Source: Candidatus Cloacimonadota bacterium (GTDB lineage: Bacteria > Cloacimonadota > Cloacimonadia > Cloacimonadales > TCS61). Taken from it: DNA of 37,614 nt. The DNA lies in assembly GCA_030600585.1 (NCBI GenBank), contig JAUVLU010000026.1:1-37614 (forward strand), read 5' to 3'. A program made the translations under genes and the position numbers. Positions 26,157 to 37,614 of this stretch are shown here, piece after piece (the first letter of the stretch is position 1; every line of letters starts with the position of its first letter). The notes beneath the pieces were generated by a model, which did no database searches, was not told where the DNA came from, and saw only the letters and a list, made by a program, of their open reading frames with translations.

Positions 26157-28658
26157 ATGGAATATCCTTTTGAAAAAATAGAGAAGAAATGGCAGAAGAT
26201 ATGGAATGATAAGAAGATATTCAATGCCAAAGACAATACAGATAAAAAGAATTATTACGTTCTTTCAATGTTTCCCTATCCATCGGGCGCACTGCATATG
26301 GGTCACGTTTCCAATTATTCTATTGCAGACGCAATTAGCCGTTATAAGATGATGCAGGGATACAATGTAATGCAGCCGATGGGTTATGACTCATTTGGAA
26401 TGCCGGCAGAAAATTTTGCCATTCAGCATAATTCTCATCCGCGAATAACCACCGATAACAACATCAATATTATGAGAAAACAGTTCGATATGATGGGTTT
26501 TGGAATCGATTGGGAACGTGAAGTAAGCACATGTCATTCCGATTACTACAAATGGGGACAGTGGTTCTTTAAAAAAATGTATGAGAAAGGACTGGCTTAC
26601 AAGAAAACATCGTTTCAAAATTGGTGTGATGATTGCCAAACCGTGCTGGCAAATGAGCAGGTAGAAGATGGCAAATGCTGGCGTTGCAATAGTGTTGTGC
26701 GGCAAAAAGAACTGGAACAATGGTTCTTTAAAATTACAGATTATGCGGAAGAACTGCTGGATTTTAGTGGAGTTATAGATTGGCCTGAACGTGTGAAAAC
26801 AATGCAGACCAATTGGATCGGGAAAAGTTTTGGAACGGAGATCTGGTTCAAATTGGAAAATTCGGAAGAGCTTATAAAGGTATTTACCACCAGACCTGAT
26901 ACGATTTTCGGTTGCACTTTTATGGCGCTTCCACCTGAGCATCCGCTGGTTACAAGCTGGCTCAAAAATGATCCGGAAAATTCCAAAATGCATAAATTCT
27001 GCGATAAGGTTATGAACGAAGATACAATTAGCAGAACGGCGGAAGATACAACTAAAGAAGGAATTTTTACCGATAGATTTGCAATTAATCCTGTTAATGG
27101 AGAAAAGGTTCAAATATGGATCACGAATTATGTGTTGATGGATTATGGAACAGGTGCCGTGATGGCTGTTCCTACTCACGATCAGCGTGATTTTGAATTT
27201 GCCAAAAAGTATGATATTCCCATGAAGATAGTTATCCAAAATCCTGAAGAAAATTTGATCCTGAAAGAAATGGAAAAGGCTTATACTGAGCCGGGAATAC
27301 TTGTTAATTCGGGTAAATTCGATGGAATGAAAAGTGATGAATCTATGAAATCCATTTCTGAATGGATGACTGAAAATAAAATGGGAAAAGAGACGGTAAC
27401 TTACAGATTACGTGACTGGGGAGTTTCACGTCAACGCTATTGGGGGAATCCGATTCCAATAATTTATTGTGAAGATTGCGGAACTGTTCTTGTTCCCGAT
27501 GAAGATCTTCCAATTAAGCTTCCCGAGAATGTCAAGCTGGGAAAAACTACTCAGAATCCGCTGCTTTCGGTTGAAGATTGGGTTAATGTGAAATGCCCGA
27601 AATGCGGGAAACATGCCAGACGTGAAACGGATACGATGGATACTTTTGTGGATAGTAGTTGGTATTACGCCCGTTATGCCGATCCTAAAAATAATAAAAT
27701 GCCGTTCAGTAAGGAACTTGCAGATAACTGGCTTCCGGTAGATCAATATATCGGCGGGATCGAGCATGCCGTAATGCACTTGATGTATGCGCGTTTCTTC
27801 CATAAATTCATGCGTGATCTGGGAATGGTAAATTCTAACGAACCGTTTGCAAGATTGCTCACACAGGGTATGGTCACAAAAGACGGTGCAAAGATGAGCA
27901 AATCTAAAGGTAATGTGGTTGATCCGCAATATATCATAGACCGTTACGGAGCAGATACAGTACGTGTATTCATGCTGTTTGCTTCACCACCCGATAAAGA
28001 TTCGGAGTGGAGTGATGAAGGTGTGAAAGGCGCATTCAGGTTTTTGAACCGTGTGTGGAGATTGTTTGATGAAAATCTGGATTTGATAAAGGATAATTTA
28101 GCCACGAAGGAACGCGAAGAAACACTAAGAAAAGAAAATATGGAAATTTCTTCGCCAATGAAGAAGCTTCGTTTCAGTACTCATTTCACAATAAAGAAAG
28201 TGCTGAATGATATTGAGAATAGAATGCAGTTCAATACTGCCATCGCTGCTGTCATGGAGCATTTGAATAATGTTTATTCTATTAAGAATGTAGAAACTTT
28301 GAATGCTGCTGAAAAAGCTATATTTGTAGAAAGCTGTGTAGCAATTCCGCATTTGATGTATGTTTTCGCACCGCATCTCAGTGAAGAATTGTGGAAGATG
28401 ATCGGAAAAGAAAATCTTTTGCATGAAGCCGGTTTACCTGAGTTCAATGAGAAATATCTAATTCAGGATGAGATCACTTATGTAATTCAGATCATGGGAA
28501 AAGTTCGCGGTAAGATAAATGTATCGGTCGATGCAACTGACGATGAAATAAAGAAACTGGCTTTGGAAGTGGAAAACGTGCAGAAATCATTGGAAGGTAA
28601 GAATATTCTGAAGATGATTATTGTTCCGAAGAAACTGGTGAGTATTGTAGCTAAGTAA
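26157..28658 (+). CDS. leuS: Leucyl-tRNA synthetase, with a repeat-derived insertion
   Basis: The 833-aa class I synthetase has FPYPSGALHMGHV with HMGH at 47-50 and KMSKS at about 579-583. It also has a zinc-type CDDC ... CWRC pair near residue 160 and the editing domain start TTRPDTIFGCTFMAL, separating it from ValS. It charges tRNA-Leu. Residues about 647-660 (LATKEREETLRKEN) lie between conserved parts and are encoded by a dispersed repeat that also occurs between genes in this window. GGGAG precedes the ATG. A strong terminator follows, so it appears to be the sole or last gene of its transcript. Confidence 0.97.
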   Translation: MEYPFEKIEKKWQKIWNDKKIFNAKDNTDKKNYYVLSMFPYPSGALHMGHVSNYSIADAISRYKMMQGYNVMQPMGYDSFGMPAENFAIQHNSHPRITTDNNINIMRKQFDMMGFGIDWEREVSTCHSDYYKWGQWFFKKMYEKGLAYKKTSFQNWCDDCQTVLANEQVEDGKCWRCNSVVRQKELEQWFFKITDYAEELLDFSGVIDWPERVKTMQTNWIGKSFGTEIWFKLENSEELIKVFTTRPDTIFGCTFMALPPEHPLVTSWLKNDPENSKMHKFCDKVMNEDTISRTAEDTTKEGIFTDRFAINPVNGEKVQIWITNYVLMDYGTGAVMAVPTHDQRDFEFAKKYDIPMKIVIQNPEENLILKEMEKAYTEPGILVNSGKFDGMKSDESMKSISEWMTENKMGKETVTYRLRDWGVSRQRYWGNPIPIIYCEDCGTVLVPDEDLPIKLPENVKLGKTTQNPLLSVEDWVNVKCPKCGKHARRETDTMDTFVDSSWYYARYADPKNNKMPFSKELADNWLPVDQYIGGIEHAVMHLMYARFFHKFMRDLGMVNSNEPFARLLTQGMVTKDGAKMSKSKGNVVDPQYIIDRYGADTVRVFMLFASPPDKDSEWSDEGVKGAFRFLNRVWRLFDENLDLIKDNLATKEREETLRKENMEISSPMKKLRFSTHFTIKKVLNDIENRMQFNTAIAAVMEHLNNVYSIKNVETLNAAEKAIFVESCVAIPHLMYVFAPHLSEELWKMIGKENLLHEAGLPEFNEKYLIQDEITYVIQIMGKVRGKINVSVDATDDEIKKLALEVENVQKSLEGKNILKMIIVPKKLVSIVAK
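28098..28133. repeat. Dispersed TTAGCCACGAAGG-type repeat inside leuS
   Basis: TTAGCCACGAAGGAACGCGA followed by an A-rich tail matches the intergenic copy at 20,611-20,645 almost base for base, apart from one extra G and a few changes. It is in frame and encodes leuS residues about 647-660. Confidence 0.8.
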
Positions 28659-28845
28659 GACGAACCACAGAGCACACGGAGAGCACAGAGGAAAATAGTA
28701 GATAGACATTAACATTCAGCATGTTGCGGACTTGACTCGTGGTGAGACTGCAAATATGAGTTGAGAACACAACAACACAGAGACACTGAGACACCTGTCT
28801 TCGTCCTGATCTTCGGGACTACGCCAAGGCAGGCAGAGAAAAAAT
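28659..28845. repeat. Dispersed repeats after leuS
   Basis: An ACCACAGAGCACACGGAGAG-type repeat (about 28,664-28,695), an ACACAGAGACACTGAGACAC-type repeat (about 28,770-28,796), and a GTCCTGAT ... GGGACTACG palindrome ending GGCAGGCAG (about 28,797-28,836) follow one another. No gene is seen between 28,659 and 29,260. Confidence 0.6.
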
Positions 28846-28851
28846 ATGTAG

Positions 28852-28881
28852 GGACAGCTCATTGAGCTGTCCTTTTTTTTT
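28852..28881 (+). terminator. Rho-independent terminator of leuS
   Basis: GGACAGCTC and GAGCTGTCC form a perfect 9-bp stem with loop ATT, directly followed by nine T. It separates leuS from the CBASS operon. Confidence 0.85.
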
Positions 28882-29069
28882 GATTCAAAATAGGTATATT
28901 CCTTAATACCTTTAAGATTAACAAAATAGAAAGATATATCACAATTTTCAAAATATTTTTTAAGAGATATATATCATTATTTGGTATATAGTTAAAAAAA
29001 AAGTTAATCTCTTAATCTCTTTTATAATGCAGATCTATGATTTTAACAATATTCTTAAAAAATTCTAAC

Positions 29070-29097
29070 TTGACATTATTTAAAAAAACATTAAATT
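29070..29097 (+). promoter_or_regulatory. Candidate promoter of the CBASS operon
   Basis: TTGACA (29,070-29,075) is followed after 16 bp by TAAATT (29,092-29,097), 4 of 6 to TATAAT. It lies in a very AT-rich stretch after the leuS terminator and 164 bp before the first gene, so a long leader RNA with two hairpins would result. Confidence 0.42.
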
Positions 29098-29133
29098 AGC
29101 AGATAGATCTTTAGAGTGCTAAATTAAAAAACA

Positions 29134-29151
29134 GCAGGACGGATGTCCTGC
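29134..29151. repeat. GCAGGAC-GGAT-GTCCTGC hairpin in the CBASS leader
   Basis: A perfect 7-bp stem with a 4-nt loop lies between the candidate promoter and the first gene. No T-tract follows, so it is not a standard terminator. It may be a dispersed palindrome or a leader structure. Confidence 0.5.
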
Positions 29152-29232
29152 CGAAAAAGAGAAATTAATCTCATTTGTTAAGTCACGCTAACAAAGTTTG
29201 ATAATTATATTTTTCCGTCAAGTCGGTTCTGC

Positions 29233-29256
29233 ATCCTCCTGAAAAAAAAGGAGGAT
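29233..29256 (+). promoter_or_regulatory. Hairpin that sequesters the ribosome binding site of the DUF2188 gene
   Basis: ATCCTCCT (29,233-29,240) pairs perfectly over 8 bp with AGGAGGAT (29,249-29,256) across a loop of G and seven A. The right arm contains the whole Shine-Dalgarno GGAGG, 6 nt before the ATG at 29,261. In the folded RNA the site would be hidden from ribosomes, suggesting translational control at the head of the CBASS operon. Confidence 0.6.
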
Positions 29257-29260
29257 TATT

Positions 29261-29497
29261 ATGTCCAAAAAAGGGGAAAATCAACATGTTGTACCACATG
29301 AAAATGGATGGGCCGTCAAAGGAGAAAGGAACCAAAGGGCAACAAAAGTTACGAAAACACAAGAACAAGCAATTAATATTGCAACTGAAATTGCTAAGAA
29401 TCAACATTCCGACACTAAGATACATGGAAGAAATGGAAGAATTAGAGCCGGGAATAGTTACGGAAATGATCCGTGTCCACCAAAAGATAAGAAATGA
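29261..29497 (+). CDS. DUF2188 domain protein, first gene of the CBASS operon
   Basis: The 78-aa protein is DUF2188 almost from end to end: HVVPHENGWAVKGE near the start, a helix with TQEQAINIATEIAKNQ, then IHGRNGRIRAGNSYGNDPCP. The family is small, basic and of unknown role; the fold is probably two short beta-hairpins and a helix. It starts the operon with a strong but hairpin-locked Shine-Dalgarno and ends 10 nt before the CD-NTase. It could modulate the CD-NTase or bind nucleic acid; nothing in the sequence decides this. Confidence 0.88.
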   Translation: MSKKGENQHVVPHENGWAVKGERNQRATKVTKTQEQAINIATEIAKNQHSDTKIHGRNGRIRAGNSYGNDPCPPKDKK

Positions 29498-29507
29498 GGA
29501 GAATACT

Positions 29508-30569
29508 ATGCCAATAAAACTAAAAAAACAATTCAAAGAATTTCATGAAGCGATTGCTTTGAATGAATCTAATGAGTTAATAGAAAAAAGAGAGAAATTA
29601 CAAAGTTGCCTTGAGAAAAATTTAGTCTATAGTCTAGAGAAAAATGGATTTGAAAACATAAAAATTGTTAAATTTATTGATCAAGGAAGTTATAAGATAA
29701 ATACAACTATCAAGTCTAAAGATAATATTTATGATCGGGATGTAGCTGTTATTCTAGAATTAGACCCAGATACTTATGATGATCCTGTAGAAATAAAAAA
29801 GATTGTTAGAGATATTTTAACAATTGAGAATCAAAGATATCCACTTATAAAAGAACCTTGTGTTACTGTTACATATACTGAAGAAAGTGAAGAAAAATAT
29901 CATATAGACATGCCAATATATGCACAAGATGACAATGATGATATTTTCTTAGGAAGAGGAAAAGAATTTGCAAATGAAGAAAATAAAATTTGGGAACCTG
30001 CTGATCCTGAGGGGTTGAATGATTATTTTACTGAAAAATTAAAAGATGATGATGGGAAACAACTTAGAAGAATAATTAGGTACTTGAAGAAATGGAAATC
30101 TGAAAAGTATTCTAATTCTGAAAATGACAATGAAATACCACCAAGTATAGCTTTAACTCTTCTTGCTTGTGAGTATTTTGAAGCCAAGAAAATCGAATCA
30201 AAATATGATGATCTTGAAGCCCTATACTACATTGTTTACAAAATTTTTGAAGAATTTGTAATAAATAATGAGTTGTTCTCAGATGAAATCCAATCCGTTG
30301 AAATGACGTGTAATTTACCAGTTATTCCTTATTCGGATGTATTAATTAAAATGAAACAATCTGATAATAATGTTTATTTAATTAAATTCTACAAAAGAAT
30401 TTTAAAATTTAAAACAGCTTTAAAGAACGCAATAGACTCCGAATTTGATCACGAAGCAGCTGAATACATTCAAAAAGAGCTTGGTGAAGAATTCGAGATT
30501 CCTTCAAAAGAAAATACAAGCAAGAAAAGTGATTATCCAGATATAAAAAAGGAAGATTCATTTGCATGA
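29508..30569 (+). CDS. CD-NTase (cGAS/DncV-like nucleotidyltransferase) of type II CBASS
   Basis: From the ATG at 29508 the protein is 353 aa. It has the nucleotidyltransferase helix start G60-S61, the metal-binding pair D76-R-D78 on the strand YDRDVAVIL, and a third acidic residue D134 in YHIDMPIYA. The family joins nucleotides into cyclic di- or trinucleotides when phage infection is sensed. Product and clade cannot be read here. The tail after about residue 322 is charged and likely flexible, ending DSFA, a small-residue end fit for Cap2 conjugation. Upstream in-frame starts would run through the DUF2188 gene, and GAGGA lies right before this ATG. Confidence 0.93.
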   Translation: MPIKLKKQFKEFHEAIALNESNELIEKREKLQSCLEKNLVYSLEKNGFENIKIVKFIDQGSYKINTTIKSKDNIYDRDVAVILELDPDTYDDPVEIKKIVRDILTIENQRYPLIKEPCVTVTYTEESEEKYHIDMPIYAQDDNDDIFLGRGKEFANEENKIWEPADPEGLNDYFTEKLKDDDGKQLRRIIRYLKKWKSEKYSNSENDNEIPPSIALTLLACEYFEAKKIESKYDDLEALYYIVYKIFEEFVINNELFSDEIQSVEMTCNLPVIPYSDVLIKMKQSDNNVYLIKFYKRILKFKTALKNAIDSEFDHEAAEYIQKELGEEFEIPSKENTSKKSDYPDIKKEDSFA

Positions 30570-32274
30570 TGAAGTCATTAACTTATTAAAAAAGGATATA
30601 AATGTAATCAAGACAGATATTGTCGGAAACTACATTTACTTCAAACTTCTCTTGAGTAGTGGTGAATATGAATTTTACATGGGGATACCTGATCAATTCC
30701 CAAGAACACTTCCTAATATAATTTCATCAAATGCAATATATCCTCATTTTTTAACAGTAAAAAAATCTTCTCGATTATTTAGCGGTAAACCTCTTATCTT
30801 TGAGATTCTAAAGAAAGATAAGATTTCATTATTATGTTATAAGAATACTAAGAATTTAATATTATACAAAGCTTCGAAAGAGAATGCTATAAAATTTACG
30901 TTAGACCAGCTTAAGCGATTGATGACTTTATCAAAGAAAGAAATTAAAGAAGAATTTCAAAAGGAATTTATTTACTATTTTAATCAAAACATCACTGAAA
31001 AGAGTTATTCTATTGATCTTTTTATTCCCCCTATTCAGGTAGTTGCAGAGATAGATATTATTGAAAGTAAGAAAATAAAAATTGCGTTATTAAAAAACGA
31101 AACTCTTAATAAGCAATATCTGAAACCTATTAAAATAGGGAAGGGAATGTATATTCCTTTGAATAATACAAATGGAATTTTACCACCAAACTGTGGTGTA
31201 GATTGGAATAAAGAGTTTCTTTTAAAATTACTGAGTTATCATGTAAATTACGATAATTATAAAAGGATAGTAAATACTTTTATCGACACAGATAAATATT
31301 TTGTAGTCTTTAAAATGGCAATTAGTAAAGAGTTAGAAATAATGTATACTATTAGCCTTAATTTTAAAACAAAAATCAGAAAGAAATTAAAAGAAAAGCT
31401 TATTGATGACTTAGAATCAATTTCTTTTATTTCTACAAAGAGGTGTGATATGTATTATTTACAACAACGTATTGGCAGTAATAATGATTTCTATAAAAAG
31501 AATGTTTTACTTGTTGGTTGTGGCTCTTTAGGAAGTTATATAGCACAAGAATTACCAAAAATCGGAATAATGAAATTATCAATCATAGATAGCGATATTT
31601 TAGGAGTTGAGAATATTGCACGCCATAGTTTAGGATATTGCTCTACCGGAAATAATAAAGCTAACATCATGGGAATGATTCTTGAAAGAAGATTTCCTCA
31701 ACTAGAAGCACAGGCTTATCCAAATCAATTTGAAGAAATTCTCGTAAATAGAGATTTTAATCTCGATGAATTTGATTTAATAATAATTTCTACAGGTTAT
31801 ACAGATAGACAATTGGTATTTAATGAAATTTTCAGAAAAAACAATTTAAAGACTTCAGTTTTATATACTTGGATAGAAGGATATGGTGTTGGTGCTCACG
31901 CCTTACTTGTTGATTATAACAAACCAGGTTGTTTCAATTGTTTATTATCACATAAAGGTAAACTTATTAATAATAAGGCACATTTTTTATCAGAAGATAA
32001 TCCTGAAATGTTAACTGGTGACGGTTGTGGAGGAACATTTAATCCATATGGTAATATTATCCTCTTACAAGCTACATCATTGATTATCAATGTAATTATG
32101 AATTATTTCAATAATGTACACGAAAACAAAAATAATCTATTGTTTTCTATGAAAAATATTAACAGCCAAAATCTAAACTTTAACGATAGGTACAATCTAA
32201 GCCAACAAGTTCTTAATAACGGGATTGATGATTATATTGAAAAAGGATATAATGTCTGTGGCAGAAAATTATAG
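30562..32274 (+). CDS. cap2: Cap2: E2-E1 ubiquitin-like ligase of type II CBASS
   Basis: The 570-aa protein has an N-terminal E2-like domain (about 1-150) with a candidate catalytic cysteine C92 in SLLCYKN, a linker domain, and a C-terminal ThiF/E1 adenylation domain from about 300. The E1 part has VGCGSLGS (318-325), IIDSD and ENIARHSLG. Candidate transfer or zinc cysteines are C457 and C460 (PGCFNC) and C489 (GDGCGG). By family knowledge Cap2 adenylates the CD-NTase C-terminus and conjugates it to a target, priming it. The start is TTG, overlapping the CD-NTase by 8 nt, with GGAAG 6 nt upstream; no in-frame ATG lies nearby. Confidence 0.93.
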   Translation: MHDEVINLLKKDINVIKTDIVGNYIYFKLLLSSGEYEFYMGIPDQFPRTLPNIISSNAIYPHFLTVKKSSRLFSGKPLIFEILKKDKISLLCYKNTKNLILYKASKENAIKFTLDQLKRLMTLSKKEIKEEFQKEFIYYFNQNITEKSYSIDLFIPPIQVVAEIDIIESKKIKIALLKNETLNKQYLKPIKIGKGMYIPLNNTNGILPPNCGVDWNKEFLLKLLSYHVNYDNYKRIVNTFIDTDKYFVVFKMAISKELEIMYTISLNFKTKIRKKLKEKLIDDLESISFISTKRCDMYYLQQRIGSNNDFYKKNVLLVGCGSLGSYIAQELPKIGIMKLSIIDSDILGVENIARHSLGYCSTGNNKANIMGMILERRFPQLEAQAYPNQFEEILVNRDFNLDEFDLIIISTGYTDRQLVFNEIFRKNNLKTSVLYTWIEGYGVGAHALLVDYNKPGCFNCLLSHKGKLINNKAHFLSEDNPEMLTGDGCGGTFNPYGNIILLQATSLIINVIMNYFNNVHENKNNLLFSMKNINSQNLNFNDRYNLSQQVLNNGIDDYIEKGYNVCGRKL

Positions 32275-32767
32275 ACTAAAACAATATATATTACCAAATA
32301 AAAAAATATTAGAAATCAATGCTTTAATCGTTGATGAATTACTCTCTTATCGTCAAAATAATGATGAAAATGAATCTGGTGGAATTCTTATTGGTTTAAC
32401 ATCGAAAAAAGGCAACATACTAATAAAAAAAATAACAACACCATTCGAAAACGATACTAGGCATCATTTGATTTATAAACGAAAAAGTATTGAACATTTA
32501 AAAATCCTTAAAAGAGAATATATAATTTCAAACGGAATTATGACTTATCAGGGTAACTGGCACACTCATCCATTTCCACAAGCTCTTCCTTCTGTAATTG
32601 ATACTAATTCATGGAATGAATCTTTAGAAGAAGAAATAAGTTTGTCTGGTTATTTAATATTTATTATCATAAGTCAGAAAGAAATTGGAGTATGGGCAAG
32701 AAAACTTAACACAAAGAAAATAATTAAATTGAATGAAAGAGGTAAATATGAATGTAGCAATAAATGA
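32252..32767 (+). CDS. cap3: Cap3: JAB/JAMM isopeptidase of type II CBASS
   Basis: From the ATG at 32252 the protein is 171 aa. The JAMM zinc site is complete: E41 (NESGGILIG), H104-T-H106, then S114 and D117 in the H-x-H-x7-S-x2-D pattern. Cap3 proteins cut the CD-NTase from its conjugates and so oppose Cap2. AAAGGAT precedes this ATG; an earlier in-frame ATG at 32225 is possible but deeper in cap2. It overlaps cap2 by 23 nt and the next gene by 20 nt, so the module is translated as a unit. Confidence 0.93.
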   Translation: MSVAENYRLKQYILPNKKILEINALIVDELLSYRQNNDENESGGILIGLTSKKGNILIKKITTPFENDTRHHLIYKRKSIEHLKILKREYIISNGIMTYQGNWHTHPFPQALPSVIDTNSWNESLEEEISLSGYLIFIIISQKEIGVWARKLNTKKIIKLNERGKYECSNK

Positions 32768-33719
32768 TACTTTAAGTGTAATTGAAAGAGTGCAACAACA
32801 TAGTTCATTAAATGGATGGGTAATAACATTTATATTAATAATTATTCCAATTGTGTACGAGATAATTAAAAGTAACCTTTCATCAATAAAATTAATTTAT
32901 GGATTTGTTTTAAATTTACCTCTTATTAAATCCTTAAATAAAAGTGAGGGTGTTTTTTTAATGAACCAGTCCCAACAACAAAAAAATTGGATAACTATAA
33001 AAAAAGAATATTTAAAGAAAAATTTTCAAACAATTGAAATAAATTACAAAAAATTACTAAAATCAAATGGTTTAATATCTGAAATAAATTTAAGAAAAAT
33101 ATTTAAAAAGCATATCACAAAAGTTAAGAAAATTGAAAGAAAATTATTAAGAATTAATAACTTAAGTTATTGTGGTTTTCCTCATGTTCCACTTGGATTT
33201 TTTGATGGTAATAATTTAAGAAAAGTTAATAACATTTCACATATAAATTACTTTGAAAATCCCCCTTGCTCTGAACAAGGATTTTTTGAATTAAAGCACA
33301 TTTACAACGATCCTGTAAAAATTGAATCTTCGGATTTAGAGGGAATAAATATTGTAAATGAAGTTATTCTCAAAGTTGAGCAGTCATATAAAATTCAAGA
33401 TAAGGATGTAAAACAGATTAATTCAGAGCTACAAATACTAAAATTCTCAAACATAGAGATCAAACCATGGGGAATTACAAATTATGCTCAACTCGATTCA
33501 TTTAAAAATCAGTTTAGAAATTATTTAATCTTATTAAAAGAAATAGGAATAAAAAAAATTCATTTAGTAGCCACAACTCCTACACCATTAAGCTTTGCTT
33601 TAGGTTCTGCGATAGAACATCATTTCCCAGAAATTATCGTATACAATTATTGCAATGGAGTTTTTGATTGGAGTATTAGTATTCAAAAAAAGGAAATTTC
33701 ATATCATAATCTAAAATAG
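32748..33719 (+). CDS. Membrane-anchored SAVED-domain CBASS effector
   Basis: The 323-aa protein has one clear TM segment (about 24-40, WVITFILIIIPIVYEII), a second weaker hydrophobic stretch (about 47-58), a basic helical linker, and a C-terminal SAVED domain from about 130. SAVED features are YCGFPHVPLGFFDG and the late HLVATTPTPLSFALGSAIEH. SAVED domains bind cyclic oligonucleotides made by the CD-NTase; TM versions are predicted to disrupt the membrane and stop growth. It starts at an ATG with GAGG before it and is the last gene of the operon. Very AT-rich. Confidence 0.88.
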   Translation: MNVAINDTLSVIERVQQHSSLNGWVITFILIIIPIVYEIIKSNLSSIKLIYGFVLNLPLIKSLNKSEGVFLMNQSQQQKNWITIKKEYLKKNFQTIEINYKKLLKSNGLISEINLRKIFKKHITKVKKIERKLLRINNLSYCGFPHVPLGFFDGNNLRKVNNISHINYFENPPCSEQGFFELKHIYNDPVKIESSDLEGINIVNEVILKVEQSYKIQDKDVKQINSELQILKFSNIEIKPWGITNYAQLDSFKNQFRNYLILLKEIGIKKIHLVATTPTPLSFALGSAIEHHFPEIIVYNYCNGVFDWSISIQKKEISYHNLK

Positions 33720-33733
33720 CAATAATAAGAAAT

Positions 33734-33820
33734 TGGTGCAGAAGGGGGGACTCGAACCCCCACAAGCTATTGCTCACTAGACCCTGAACCTAGCGCGTCT
33801 ACCAATTTCGCCACTCGGGC
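33734..33820 (-). tRNA. tRNA-Leu (CAG anticodon), acceptor stem mismatched; probably a chimera
   Basis: The minus strand reads as a class II tRNA with TTCGAGT T-loop, long variable arm, anticodon loop TTCAGGG (anticodon CAG, leucine) and encoded CCA. The acceptor stem should pair GCCCGAG (1-7) with CTTCTGC (66-72): pairs 3-70 (C-T) and 4-69 (C-C) are mismatched and 5-68 is G-T. The 5' half suits a CTCGGGC partner and the 3' half a GCAGAAG partner. Base composition switches here, so the gene is likely two half-genes joined. Confidence 0.88.
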
Positions 33821-33912
33821 GTGCGGAGCGTTAATGTAGCACCGGGCTTGGCTCGGTGTCAATATTTGTGGTCGCGTAGCATGCTCCGCGGGATTCTGAT
33901 ATCATGGGGCGA

Positions 33913-33983: not shown

Positions 33984-34865
33984 ATGAAGACTTACCTGGA
34001 ATGTATACCGTGCATGATGTCCCAGGCTTTGCGGGCGGGTCGGGAAGCAGGGCTGGCGGACGAAGGGCTCAAGACGCTTCTTGATGAGGTGGGGATGCTG
34101 ATCCGCGATATCCCTATGGGCAGCACTCCGCCGGAATCGGGAAAGCTCGTATATGAGAAAGTGCGGGGAATCACGGGCAAGAAGGATCCTTACTCGCGTA
34201 TGAAGGCGGCGCACATCCGCGAAGCAATAACGCTGTATCCGGAGATGAAGAAGATTGTCGGGAAAGCGGGTGATCCTCTGTTGACGAGCATTCGGCTTGC
34301 CATCGCGGGGAACGTCATTGACCTGGGAGTGAACAGGCAGTTTGATCTGATTGAAGAGATCCAGCAATCCCTGGGCCAGGAGTTGGCCATTTCCCATTAC
34401 GACTCCTTTGTCCGATATCTCGAGGAATCGACCTCAATCCTCTACCTGGGTGACAACGCGGGAGAATCGGTTTTTGACAGGATCCTGATTGAAGCGCTGG
34501 GGAAGCCAGTTCAGTTTGTGGTCAGAGATATTCCGGTCATTAATGATGTGACTCGAGAGGATGCCATGATGTCCGGGCTCGGGGAGGTAGCGGAGATAGT
34601 GTCGTCGGGAACTCCTGCCCCGGGAACTGTCTTATCCCTGTGTACGGAGGAGTTCCTGGAAATATTCAATCATGCGGATATGATCATCAGCAAAGGGCAG
34701 GGCAACTACGAAGCGCTTTCCGAGACGGATCGGCCGGTGTTCTTCCTGCTGAAAGTCAAATGTCCGGTGATCGCCCGAAACCTCGGGGTAGAGGAAAACG
34801 ATATTGTGCTGAAGTTCAGCAACGTCGATTCCACGGCGCAAATTCAAGGGGGGCCTGCACTATGA
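33984..34865 (+). CDS. DUF89/ARMT1-like protein (damage-control phosphatase family)
   Basis: The 293-aa protein matches the DUF89 family: an N-terminal CIPCMMSQALRA, RMK near residue 72, a central ILYLGDNAGESVFDR with the metal-binding aspartate/asparagine, and ADMIISKGQGNYE near 232. Members are metal-dependent phosphatases thought to remove damaged sugar phosphates or metabolites. The early CxxC marks the prokaryotic subgroup. AAGGAG is 14 nt before the ATG, a long gap. The stop overlaps the next start as ATGA. Its GC-rich codon use differs sharply from genes to the left. Confidence 0.88.
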   Translation: MKTYLECIPCMMSQALRAGREAGLADEGLKTLLDEVGMLIRDIPMGSTPPESGKLVYEKVRGITGKKDPYSRMKAAHIREAITLYPEMKKIVGKAGDPLLTSIRLAIAGNVIDLGVNRQFDLIEEIQQSLGQELAISHYDSFVRYLEESTSILYLGDNAGESVFDRILIEALGKPVQFVVRDIPVINDVTREDAMMSGLGEVAEIVSSGTPAPGTVLSLCTEEFLEIFNHADMIISKGQGNYEALSETDRPVFFLLKVKCPVIARNLGVEENDIVLKFSNVDSTAQIQGGPAL

Positions 34866-35311
34866 GTTCGTCAACCAAGATCGGAATCATCATTTGCGAT
34901 CGCTACAAGACCTGTGCGGGCGGCAAATGTTTCAGATCGCTGAAACGCAGAGAGGGGGCCTTTTCCATCTATCCTCGGGAAGAAGATGTGGAGATAGTCG
35001 GATACACCACATGCGGGGGATGTCCAGGTGGGAACATAGAGTATGCCCCGGAAGAGATGGAGAAGAACGGAGCGACAGTGATTCATCTGGCGACCGGGTT
35101 GGTGGTTGGCTATCCTCCGTGTCCCTATATCTCTTCCTTCAAGGCTCTGATTGAAGAAAAACACCGACTCAACGTGGTGATTGGCACGCACCCTATCCCG
35201 CAGAACTACTACCTGACCCACCAGGCACTCGACACGTGGAACGGCGAGGAATGGAAGGAGTTGATCGCTCCTACGTTGTCGAACGAGGAAATACGTTTAG
35301 CATACGATTGA
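34862..35311 (+). CDS. CGGC-domain protein
   Basis: The 149-aa protein contains CGGCPGG at about residues 51-57, the motif that names the CGGC domain. It also has an earlier TCAGGKC pair (about 18-24) and a later YPPCPY. The cysteines suggest metal or cluster binding; no function is established. It overlaps the DUF89 gene by four bases (ATGA), so the two are translationally coupled. A longer upstream frame exists but lies wholly over the DUF89 gene. Confidence 0.85.
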   Translation: MSSSTKIGIIICDRYKTCAGGKCFRSLKRREGAFSIYPREEDVEIVGYTTCGGCPGGNIEYAPEEMEKNGATVIHLATGLVVGYPPCPYISSFKALIEEKHRLNVVIGTHPIPQNYYLTHQALDTWNGEEWKELIAPTLSNEEIRLAYD

Positions 35312-35358: not shown

Positions 35359-35487
35359 CTATTCGCTCCCGCCCTTGTTGGATCGATTATCCTTGATCAG
35401 CTTGACGACCTTCTGCACACCTACGTCTATCTGAGGCTTGAACAAGTAGCCCAACACAACACCAACGAACAATCCAAAAAACCACAT
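35359..35487 (-). CDS. 42-aa membrane peptide coupled to hsp20
   Basis: The small frame starts MWFFGLFVGVVLGYLFKP, one short TM segment, followed by an amphipathic, basic helix (VQKVVKLIKDNRS) and a polar end. Its ATG overlaps the hsp20 stop as TAATG, with GGAG 8 nt before it inside the hsp20 end. Overlap, RBS and plausible membrane-peptide composition support it as a gene, but it is short. Confidence 0.6.
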   Translation of the reverse strand: MWFFGLFVGVVLGYLFKPQIDVGVQKVVKLIKDNRSNKGGSE

Positions 35488-36011
35488 TACTTTTTCTCCT
35501 TCGTGGGACCCTCGTCTTCGTTGACAATATTGATTTTTACGCCCTCTGTCTGTGGTTGGATCTCCCGGGGCGGAATCGAAACCGTGAGAATTCCGTTCCT
35601 ATAGACGGCTTTCACCTGGTCGCGATCAAACTTGTCCGCCGGGACGTAGTAACGCTGATCGGAAAAGCCCTTCCGCTTGAGTCGGCGCTTGAAGTAGCGA
35701 ACCCCCTCCGGGTCCTTCATCTCTTCAGGAATCGTACCGCTGAAGGTCATGTAGTCGCCCTTGAACTCCAGGCTGACGTCCTTCTCGCCGAAGCCGGCGA
35801 TGGCGAACTCGAAGACGAGCACTTTGTCTTCGGTCATGTAGATGTTGGCGGCCGGAAATGGGTATGCCGAGTAGTACTCGCGGTTCCACTTCCAAGCTTT
35901 CTCATCCGGGTTGAACTGCATTCCTTCGGTGAATGCACTGGTGAAGTCCTCGGCCGCTGAGAATATTTCATCCATCAGCTTTCCGAGATCGGGGAAATCA
36001 TGGCGTTTCAT
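35487..36011 (-). CDS. Hsp20/alpha-crystallin small heat-shock protein
   Basis: The 174-aa protein has a variable N-terminal arm (1-50), an alpha-crystallin domain (about 55-155) with NGILTVSIP, the conserved G-x-L motif near its end, and a short lysine-rich C-terminal tail. It would act as an ATP-independent holdase chaperone. GAGGAGG sits 5 nt upstream of the ATG. A sigma-54-type promoter lies 127 bp upstream, and a 42-aa peptide gene follows in TAATG overlap. Confidence 0.93.
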   Translation of the reverse strand: MKRHDFPDLGKLMDEIFSAAEDFTSAFTEGMQFNPDEKAWKWNREYYSAYPFPAANIYMTEDKVLVFEFAIAGFGEKDVSLEFKGDYMTFSGTIPEEMKDPEGVRYFKRRLKRKGFSDQRYYVPADKFDRDQVKAVYRNGILTVSIPPREIQPQTEGVKINIVNEDEGPTKEKK

Positions 36012-36137
36012 AACGCCTCCTCTGCATGCCGCAATCGGTTCAATATGATACCGGAGCCGGCAAGATATGCCCCATACTTGGGACTACCGCCCATACCGCG
36101 ACGGCCTCGGGCCCTTTCGGCGCCCGCACCTATAAGA

Positions 36138-36153
36138 TGCAACATTCATGCCA
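36138..36153 (-). promoter_or_regulatory. Sigma-54 (RpoN)-type promoter upstream of hsp20
   Basis: On the minus strand the bases read TGGCATG-AATG-TTGCA. The sigma-54 consensus is TGGCACG-N4-TTGCW, so there is one mismatch and the GG/GC spacing is exact. It points at hsp20, with a 5' leader of roughly 115 nt. The remaining part of the 396-bp gap (36,012-36,407) holds no convincing gene; the start region of the YmdB-like gene must also lie there. Confidence 0.55.
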
Positions 36154-36407
36154 ATTCCGCCACCCCTGGTATGGCGGGCGGGTCAAAATTATAACTCCTT
36201 ACAGGGTAAGAATGTATTGGCCGAGAATCGGGCTGCGTGTTGATTGGTTCGGTATCGGCGTCGTCCCGCCGCGTCGCCTGAGGTTCACGGCGCGGCAAAA
36301 AGATTCACCGCGGCGAGGAATCGATCCAAACCGTGTCGAAATGACCCGGTGCGCTGTCGATCGATGTCGTGACAGACTGGCGAGGCTTCTGATAGGATAC
36401 GCGGGCT

Positions 36408-37223
36408 TTGCGTGTACTATTCATTGCTGAAATTGTGGGGAAAGCCGGCGTCTACTGCGTGAAGTCGGTGTTGCCTGGCCTCCGGAAAGAGCTCGAGATC
36501 GATTTTGTGGTTGCCAATGCCGATGGCGCCACCGGGGGTTTCGGGATCGGGAAGAACCATGCCATCTACCTTCGCAAGCTCGGCATCGATGTGATCACCG
36601 GCGGCGAGCAGATCTACTTCAAGAAGGATATGGTTGCCCACATTGAAAACTCCTCCTACATACTGCGACCGGCCAACTTCTCGCCGGCCGCGCCCGGGAG
36701 AGGGTGGCGTTACTTCAATGCCGGCGAAGAGCGGGTGGCGGTGATTAGCCTGTTGGGACAGTCCGGTTTTGATCGGGTCCATGCCAGTAACCCGTTTACC
36801 TACCTGCCCGAGCTTGCGAGCAAGGCGAGGAGAGAGACGCCGTACGTTATCGTTGATTTCCATGCCGTTACGACGGCGGAGAAGTACACGATGTTCCATC
36901 GGGCGGACGGTGCCGTATCGGCGATAGTCGGGACGGGAACCCGCGTGCAGACCAACGACGCCGCAATCATGCCGCGCGGAACGGCAGTCATCACCGATGT
37001 TGGTAGAACGGGGAGCCGTGATAGCGTGGCCGGTCTGGATCCTGGCCCCGAGATCCGAAAGTTTATAAGTTCTATGCCGGAGCGGTCGGCTGACGCGTGG
37101 GGCGTGCTCCAGTTCCAGGGCGTAGTTCTGGATCTGAATCCGGACGGGAAAGCTGAGCGGATTGAGCCGGTGACCCGGACCTGCAAGGAGGCGTCTAGTG
37201 ACCGAACGGGCGCGAGTGATTGA
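36408..37223 (+). CDS. YmdB-family metallophosphoesterase homologue lacking most metal ligands
   Basis: The 271-aa protein aligns along its length with YmdB/TIGR00282 phosphodiesterases: MRVLFIAEIVG, RPANF near 88, VDFHA near 149 and AVITDVGRTG. Family ligands are altered: Asp8 is Glu, the GEN motif is ADG, GNH is GEQ, and GTHTHVQT is GTGTRVQT; only the histidine in DFHA is clearly kept. The fold should be intact but catalysis is doubtful. Start is TTG, chosen because the conserved N-terminus begins there. It overlaps the RseC gene by 26 nt. Confidence 0.85.
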   Translation: MRVLFIAEIVGKAGVYCVKSVLPGLRKELEIDFVVANADGATGGFGIGKNHAIYLRKLGIDVITGGEQIYFKKDMVAHIENSSYILRPANFSPAAPGRGWRYFNAGEERVAVISLLGQSGFDRVHASNPFTYLPELASKARRETPYVIVDFHAVTTAEKYTMFHRADGAVSAIVGTGTRVQTNDAAIMPRGTAVITDVGRTGSRDSVAGLDPGPEIRKFISSMPERSADAWGVLQFQGVVLDLNPDGKAERIEPVTRTCKEASSDRTGASD

Positions 37224-37602
37224 GATTCACGAGGATTCCGCGATGCTGGAGTGCTTTGAGAACTCCGGTTGCGAGAGTTGCAGCAGTTCGTTCTGCAACG
37301 TCAAGGTTCGGACATTTCAGGCCGCCGTCACTTCCGAGGTTCGAGTGAACATCGGTGACCGGGTTGAAGTCTTTCTGCCTCCGTCCAAGGCGATCGGAGC
37401 CGGGTTTTTCGTGCTGATATTCCCCCTCCTGCTCTTTGTTGGTGTCTACCTCGCCTTCGGGTTTCTCGAGAACGAAGGGGCTCAGGTGGGCGCCGGGCTT
37501 GGAGGGCTTGCCGCCGGGTTCGGGCTTGTCTACCTGATTGGACGCCGCCGGCGCCACGATCTGCCTCGGATTGTTCGTGTGCTTCACGGCACGAGCGTGT
37601 AG
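37198..37602 (+). CDS. RseC/MucC-family protein (SoxR-reducing system)
   Basis: The 134-aa protein has an N-terminal cysteine cluster CFENSGCESCSSSFC (about 20-34) and two TM segments (about 68-85 and 95-115), ending in a basic cytoplasmic tail. This is the RseC layout; relatives sit beside rnf (electron-transport) genes and support reduction of SoxR-like clusters. The start is GTG with AGGAGG about 7 nt before it, inside the YmdB-like gene. The gene is complete; the next genes lie beyond the window. Confidence 0.88.
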   Translation: MTERARVIEIHEDSAMLECFENSGCESCSSSFCNVKVRTFQAAVTSEVRVNIGDRVEVFLPPSKAIGAGFFVLIFPLLLFVGVYLAFGFLENEGAQVGAGLGGLAAGFGLVYLIGRRRRHDLPRIVRVLHGTSV

Positions 37603-37614
37603 CCGTACACCTCG

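Follow-up and report, generated by a model that had tools for sequence, protein, structure and literature searches.

The window, which is an entire contig (C49) of 37,614 bp, is with a probability of roughly 96% an assembly chimera, in which the DNA of an AT-rich genome carrying leuS and a CBASS operon (the left genome) passes within a tRNA-Leu(CAG) gene into the DNA of a spirochaete. The assembly software almost certainly joined two genomes at a short sequence common to both tRNA genes, so that the junction is an artefact and holds no new biology. The contig is part of a bin of 89 contigs (2.58 Mb; completeness 96.8%, contamination 1.8%). A chimeric join of two genomes had been proposed by the initial annotation, and our data support it along with each of the specific predictions attached to it, the right side deriving from Spirochaetales and the native remainder of the locus lying beside a second hybrid tRNA on contig C9. 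The features of the window are as follows.

26157-28658, plus strand: leuS, which belongs to the left genome and anchors the native locus on its left side
29286-33719, plus strand: CBASS operon encoding CD-NTase, E1-E2 (ThiF), JAB peptidase and TM-SAVED effector (Pfam and PADLOC)
33734-33774, minus strand: 3' part of the tRNA-Leu(CAG), with variable arm, T-arm, 3' acceptor arm CTTCTGC and CCA, native to the left genome, as it lies in a stretch of 78-79 bp, extending into the D-arm, that is identical in congeners
33775-33807, minus strand: 33-bp stretch common to native and spirochaete tRNA-Leu(CAG) that holds the join, AATTGGTAGACGCGCTAGGTTCAGGGTCTAGTG
33808-33820, minus strand: hybrid tRNA, foreign 5' end, GCCCGAGTGGCGA
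33821-33866, minus strand: foreign tRNA promoter region, TTGACA ... GGTGCTAC
33984-35311, plus strand: ARMT1-like (DUF89) and CGGC-domain genes (Pfam), foreign
35369-37614 (contig end): hsp20 (minus strand), ymdB (plus strand) and rseC (plus strand), foreign

ARAGORN and Rfam agree on a single tRNA in the window, the tRNA-Leu(CAG) at 33820-33734 on the minus strand, which reaches an Rfam score of 39.1 bits compared to 43.5-74 bits for the remaining full-length tRNAs in this bin. Its acceptor stem, formed by GCCCGAG and CTTCTGC, leaves C3-U70 and C4-C69 unpaired and has merely a G.U pair at 5-68, the failed pairs being marked in the Rfam alignment. The GC content amounts to 0.345 over positions 1-28658, falls to 0.273 in the CBASS stretch and is 0.56 from 33821 to the end of the contig; values on the left side range from 0.25 to 0.41 and the step to 0.56 falls at the tRNA gene. 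The break in composition and the unpaired positions 3-70 and 4-69, both read from the letters before, are thereby confirmed, the GC step being from 0.27-0.35 to 0.56. We found no intact tRNA-Leu(CAG) in the bin, in which the remaining tRNA-Leu genes have the anticodons TAA, TAG, AAG and CAA, and the only two tRNA-Leu(CAG) genes found are both hybrids with defective stems. A weak and short tRNA match (34.2 bits, 56 bases) without an ARAGORN call adjoins a tRNA-Asp on another contig (G000:C25:12088-12143) and is possibly a tRNA remnant.

The two sides of the window have different closest lineages. On the left, identity to congeners is 82-99% for leuS and the tRNA body, with leuS being 82-90% identical to the leuS situated immediately left of this same tRNA-Leu in five congeners (G001, G002, G003, G006 and G007) and the tRNA body, from approximately 33724-33731 to 33815, being 98-99% identical in G001, G002, G006, G008 and G009. 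Across 74-79 bases, starting at the D-arm and ending at the 3' terminus, the tRNA of the window is exactly identical to those of the congeners, and the congener 5' arm, GCAGAAG, pairs perfectly with the CTTCTGC of the window. In the congeners the genes, named by sequence resemblance, follow the order leuS, mntP, tRNA-Leu(CAG), dnaX and a polysaccharide-deacetylase-like gene; the order leuS, CBASS operon and tRNA in the window is the same locus with another insert. The CBASS operon is thus linked with the native body of the tRNA and belongs to the left genome, and the sequence right of approximately 33,808 does not.

On the right, YmdB and Hsp20 are 92-94% identical to Spirochaetales proteins. 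The DNA carrying hsp20, ymdB and rseC is 83-86% identical, with the genes in the same order, to G038:C12:21861-24416, G038 being Spirochaetales bacterium CORE_19_RING_Bin_00006, which was surveyed among 14 named-MAG genomes with a relative of the ARMT1-like gene of the tail. The encoded proteins show identities of 92.5% (Hsp20), 94% (YmdB) and 73% (RseC). The bin has a YmdB of its own (C53:7141-7929) that is 38% identical to the YmdB of the tail, making the latter a second copy; the relatives with a YmdB match have a single copy each, 33-42% identical to the tail protein. The tetranucleotide distance of the tail is 0.169 to G038, its nearest genome, versus 0.291 to the left side of its own contig. 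Both this comparison and separate searches with each side had been suggested by the initial annotation, and the searches led to the congeners on the left and to Spirochaetales on the right. A tRNA-Leu(CAG) starting with GCCCGAG and paired by CTCGGGC is present in four genomes of the Spirochaetales family of G038, so that the two partner arms predicted for the mispaired stem, GCAGAAG and CTCGGGC, exist in the congeners and in this family, respectively. In two of these four spirochaete genomes (L083 and L084), 91 bases that cover the 5' portion of the tRNA-Leu together with the upstream DNA and its promoter are 82% identical to the tail. With one paired version of the tRNA in the congeners, another in spirochaetes and the hybrid limited to this bin among 107 genomes of the order, the mispaired stem goes beyond chance.

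The ARMT1-like protein is 53-66% identical to proteins of Bacteroidota, Spirochaetales and other MAGs, and the CGGC-domain protein is 75% identical to a Bacteroidales protein. Neither gene is present at the corresponding place beside hsp20-ymdB in G038, the nearest spirochaete, and the gene order of the tail is therefore just partly confirmed; possibly these genes are arranged differently in the species from which the tail really came. The ARMT1-like gene followed by the CGGC gene is also found as an adjacent pair in a Bacteroidales MAG (L047), which suggests that the two form a module that is linked or mobile.

Lineage, gene order and tRNA arms change at one place, at which the congeners have dnaX. 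The join lies in sequence of both sources, as the 33 bp at 33775-33807 are identical in a congener (L059), the window and a member of the spirochaete family (L085). With the A at 33808 taken as foreign, the crossover falls within 33775-33807; the wider interval 33775-33815 holds in any case, also with this A as native variation. The fusion of two tRNA-Leu genes across their conserved middle from D-arm to anticodon, as envisaged from the unequal arms, agrees with the position of this shared stretch, and the boundary to the right of which the DNA should not be assigned to the CBASS host is refined from about 33,800 to about 33,808. A chimera would have been contradicted had this junction turned up in an independent genome; a zero-mismatch search of 107 genomes of the order detected the hybrid junction in this bin alone and in none of the other 106.

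The true continuation of the native locus is found elsewhere in the assembly. The dnaX of the bin lies on contig C9 (C9:62911-65373; with its flank C9:61525-65373) and adjoins the second hybrid tRNA-Leu(CAG), in which the native 5' arm GCAGAAG is combined with a foreign 3' arm, CTTCGGC, resulting in one stem mismatch. Beyond this hybrid, 3.65 kb of foreign DNA with 43.5% GC extend to the end of the contig:

G000:C9:65370-69105 (L068:8371-12106): hybrid tRNA and foreign tail with the genes for fbp (fructose-bisphosphatase), a long class-II-aldolase-like protein and an SH3-domain-like protein

The C9 tail derives from a third genome. Its aldolase gene is absent from all 20 relatives examined, and a search of G038 and three genomes of its family did not find it either, the latter absence being weak because the search had no positive control. 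The overlap of native and foreign sequence at the C9 join is expected to be about 29 bp. With dnaX beside the second hybrid on C9 and only hybrid copies of tRNA-Leu(CAG) found in the bin, the native locus was thus cut at the tRNA, and its two ends were extended into different organisms.

This supports a model according to which the true locus of the left genome would read leuS, CBASS, tRNA-Leu(CAG) and dnaX, and the source metagenome would contain at least two other organisms whose tRNA-Leu(CAG) shares about 30 consecutive bases with the native gene, in the part that spans D-arm and anticodon arm. At this shared stretch the assembler would have departed from the native path: coming from the leuS/CBASS side, the assembly would have run into the spirochaete, resulting in the right 3.8 kb of the window, and coming from the dnaX side into the third organism, resulting in the last 3.65 kb of C9. 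The data themselves show the switch in composition and lineage, the source of either tRNA half, the continuation of the native locus on C9, the second hybrid and the lack of the junction in relatives. We infer an origin in the assembler rather than in a cell, with a short shared k-mer as the cause, because one locus yields two hybrids with unrelated partners, both tails reach contig ends, the overlaps measure about 30 bp, the stem is mispaired, the junction is missing from the 106 other genomes of the order and the rest of the 15-kb region of G038 has no further match in the bin. The case resembles the inter-species contig chimerism defined by the GUNC authors, in which fragments of different source genomes are placed in a single contig (PMC8201837); unlike in this general type, the join has here been narrowed to some 33 bp inside a tRNA gene, and the other broken end of that locus has been located on a different contig. 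The same authors describe misassembly as a known error in MAGs which is relatively rare compared to mis-binning (PMC8201837), and we count this against the chimera, together with the gene order of the tail being just partly confirmed. Our literature search returned general work on chimerism but no study of joins situated in tRNA genes.

Integration commonly takes place at tRNA genes, and an island or another type of mobile element inserted into the tRNA-Leu(CAG) of the left genome would place a junction within a tRNA gene with foreign composition on one side, as is known for islands, ICEs and prophages. The tails of C49 and C9 would then be the two ends of the element and the hybrids its attachment sites, and the topology fits, a native 3' half being joined to a foreign 5' end on C49 and a foreign 3' half to a native 5' end on C9. 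After such an integration the tRNA would be expected to remain functional, and both ends to derive from the same element and share one attachment tRNA; neither holds here. The stems of both hybrids are mismatched, so that the acceptor stem is restored in neither, and the foreign arms GCCCGAG and CTTCGGC do not make one tRNA, with C4-C69 unpaired and 5-68 being G.U. The tails also differ from each other in composition (GC 0.56 versus 0.435; tetranucleotide distance 0.309) and gene content, they carry the housekeeping genes ymdB, rseC, fbp and the aldolase gene as cargo, and the failure to find this aldolase in the four spirochaete genomes, although lacking a positive control, points the same way. 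Pfam revealed no integrase among the main genes of the C49 tail and two of the three genes of the C9 tail, and such a gene could lie outside these 3.7-kb tails. Because the foreign halves are not one tRNA and the tails differ, we reject the integration of an element, which we regard as very improbable. A reciprocal swap with one foreign genome was considered as well and rejected, given the C9 arm CTTCGGC versus the spirochaete CTCGGGC and the outcome of the same aldolase search.

The position of the breakpoint precisely in the shared stretch would also be expected if homologous recombination across phyla at the 33 bp had brought spirochaete DNA into the left genome. Such an event would leave the genome without an intact tRNA-Leu(CAG), the only two copies found having defective stems; moreover, the donor DNA extends to the contig end with none further in the bin, and the junction is missing from all 106 relatives, making this explanation close to negligible. 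That in a real cell spirochaete DNA recombined into the tRNA-Leu(CAG) of an unrelated lineage, with the remaining hybrid genes, one of them with a two-mismatch stem, still working, is in our view highly improbable. Ordinary variation within one genome, with a diverged or decaying tRNA gene, could be invoked for the GC step considering that GC on the left side itself spans 0.25-0.41, but lineage, gene order and tRNA arms switch together at a position occupied by dnaX in the congeners, and this reading, to which we assign almost no probability, is already refuted by the 94% identity to a spirochaete YmdB together with the conservation of gene order.

The assembly chimera thus remains our reading, and it averts a false inference: the genes for the ARMT1-like, CGGC, Hsp20, YmdB and RseC proteins should be taken neither for neighbours of the CBASS operon nor for horizontal acquisitions of its host. 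The bin has at least two chimeric contig ends, those of C49 and C9. The arms of an acceptor stem fitting different lineages reveal both the join and its two sources, providing a simple check for chimeras. The CBASS operon corresponds to type II CBASS, with all four genes (CD-NTase, E1-E2, JAB and TM-SAVED) present beside the join; it lies outside the join itself and is a property of the left genome.

Within the native locus, the CBASS operon occupies the interval between leuS and the tRNA where congeners have mntP, and the window is without an mntP-like gene. We compared the interval of the window (28658-33734) with three others (L060:13482-17509, L062:2436-6147 and L059:2211-3031). Its content varies in the genus and often comprises defence-like genes, i.e. 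CBASS in the window, a NACHT-LRR protein in G007, a ThsB-type TIR protein together with an E2-like and a PDC-M50-type (PDC-M50A) protein in G002, and mntP alone in G001, which gives the leuS-tRNA-Leu(CAG) interval the appearance of a defence hotspot within the genus.
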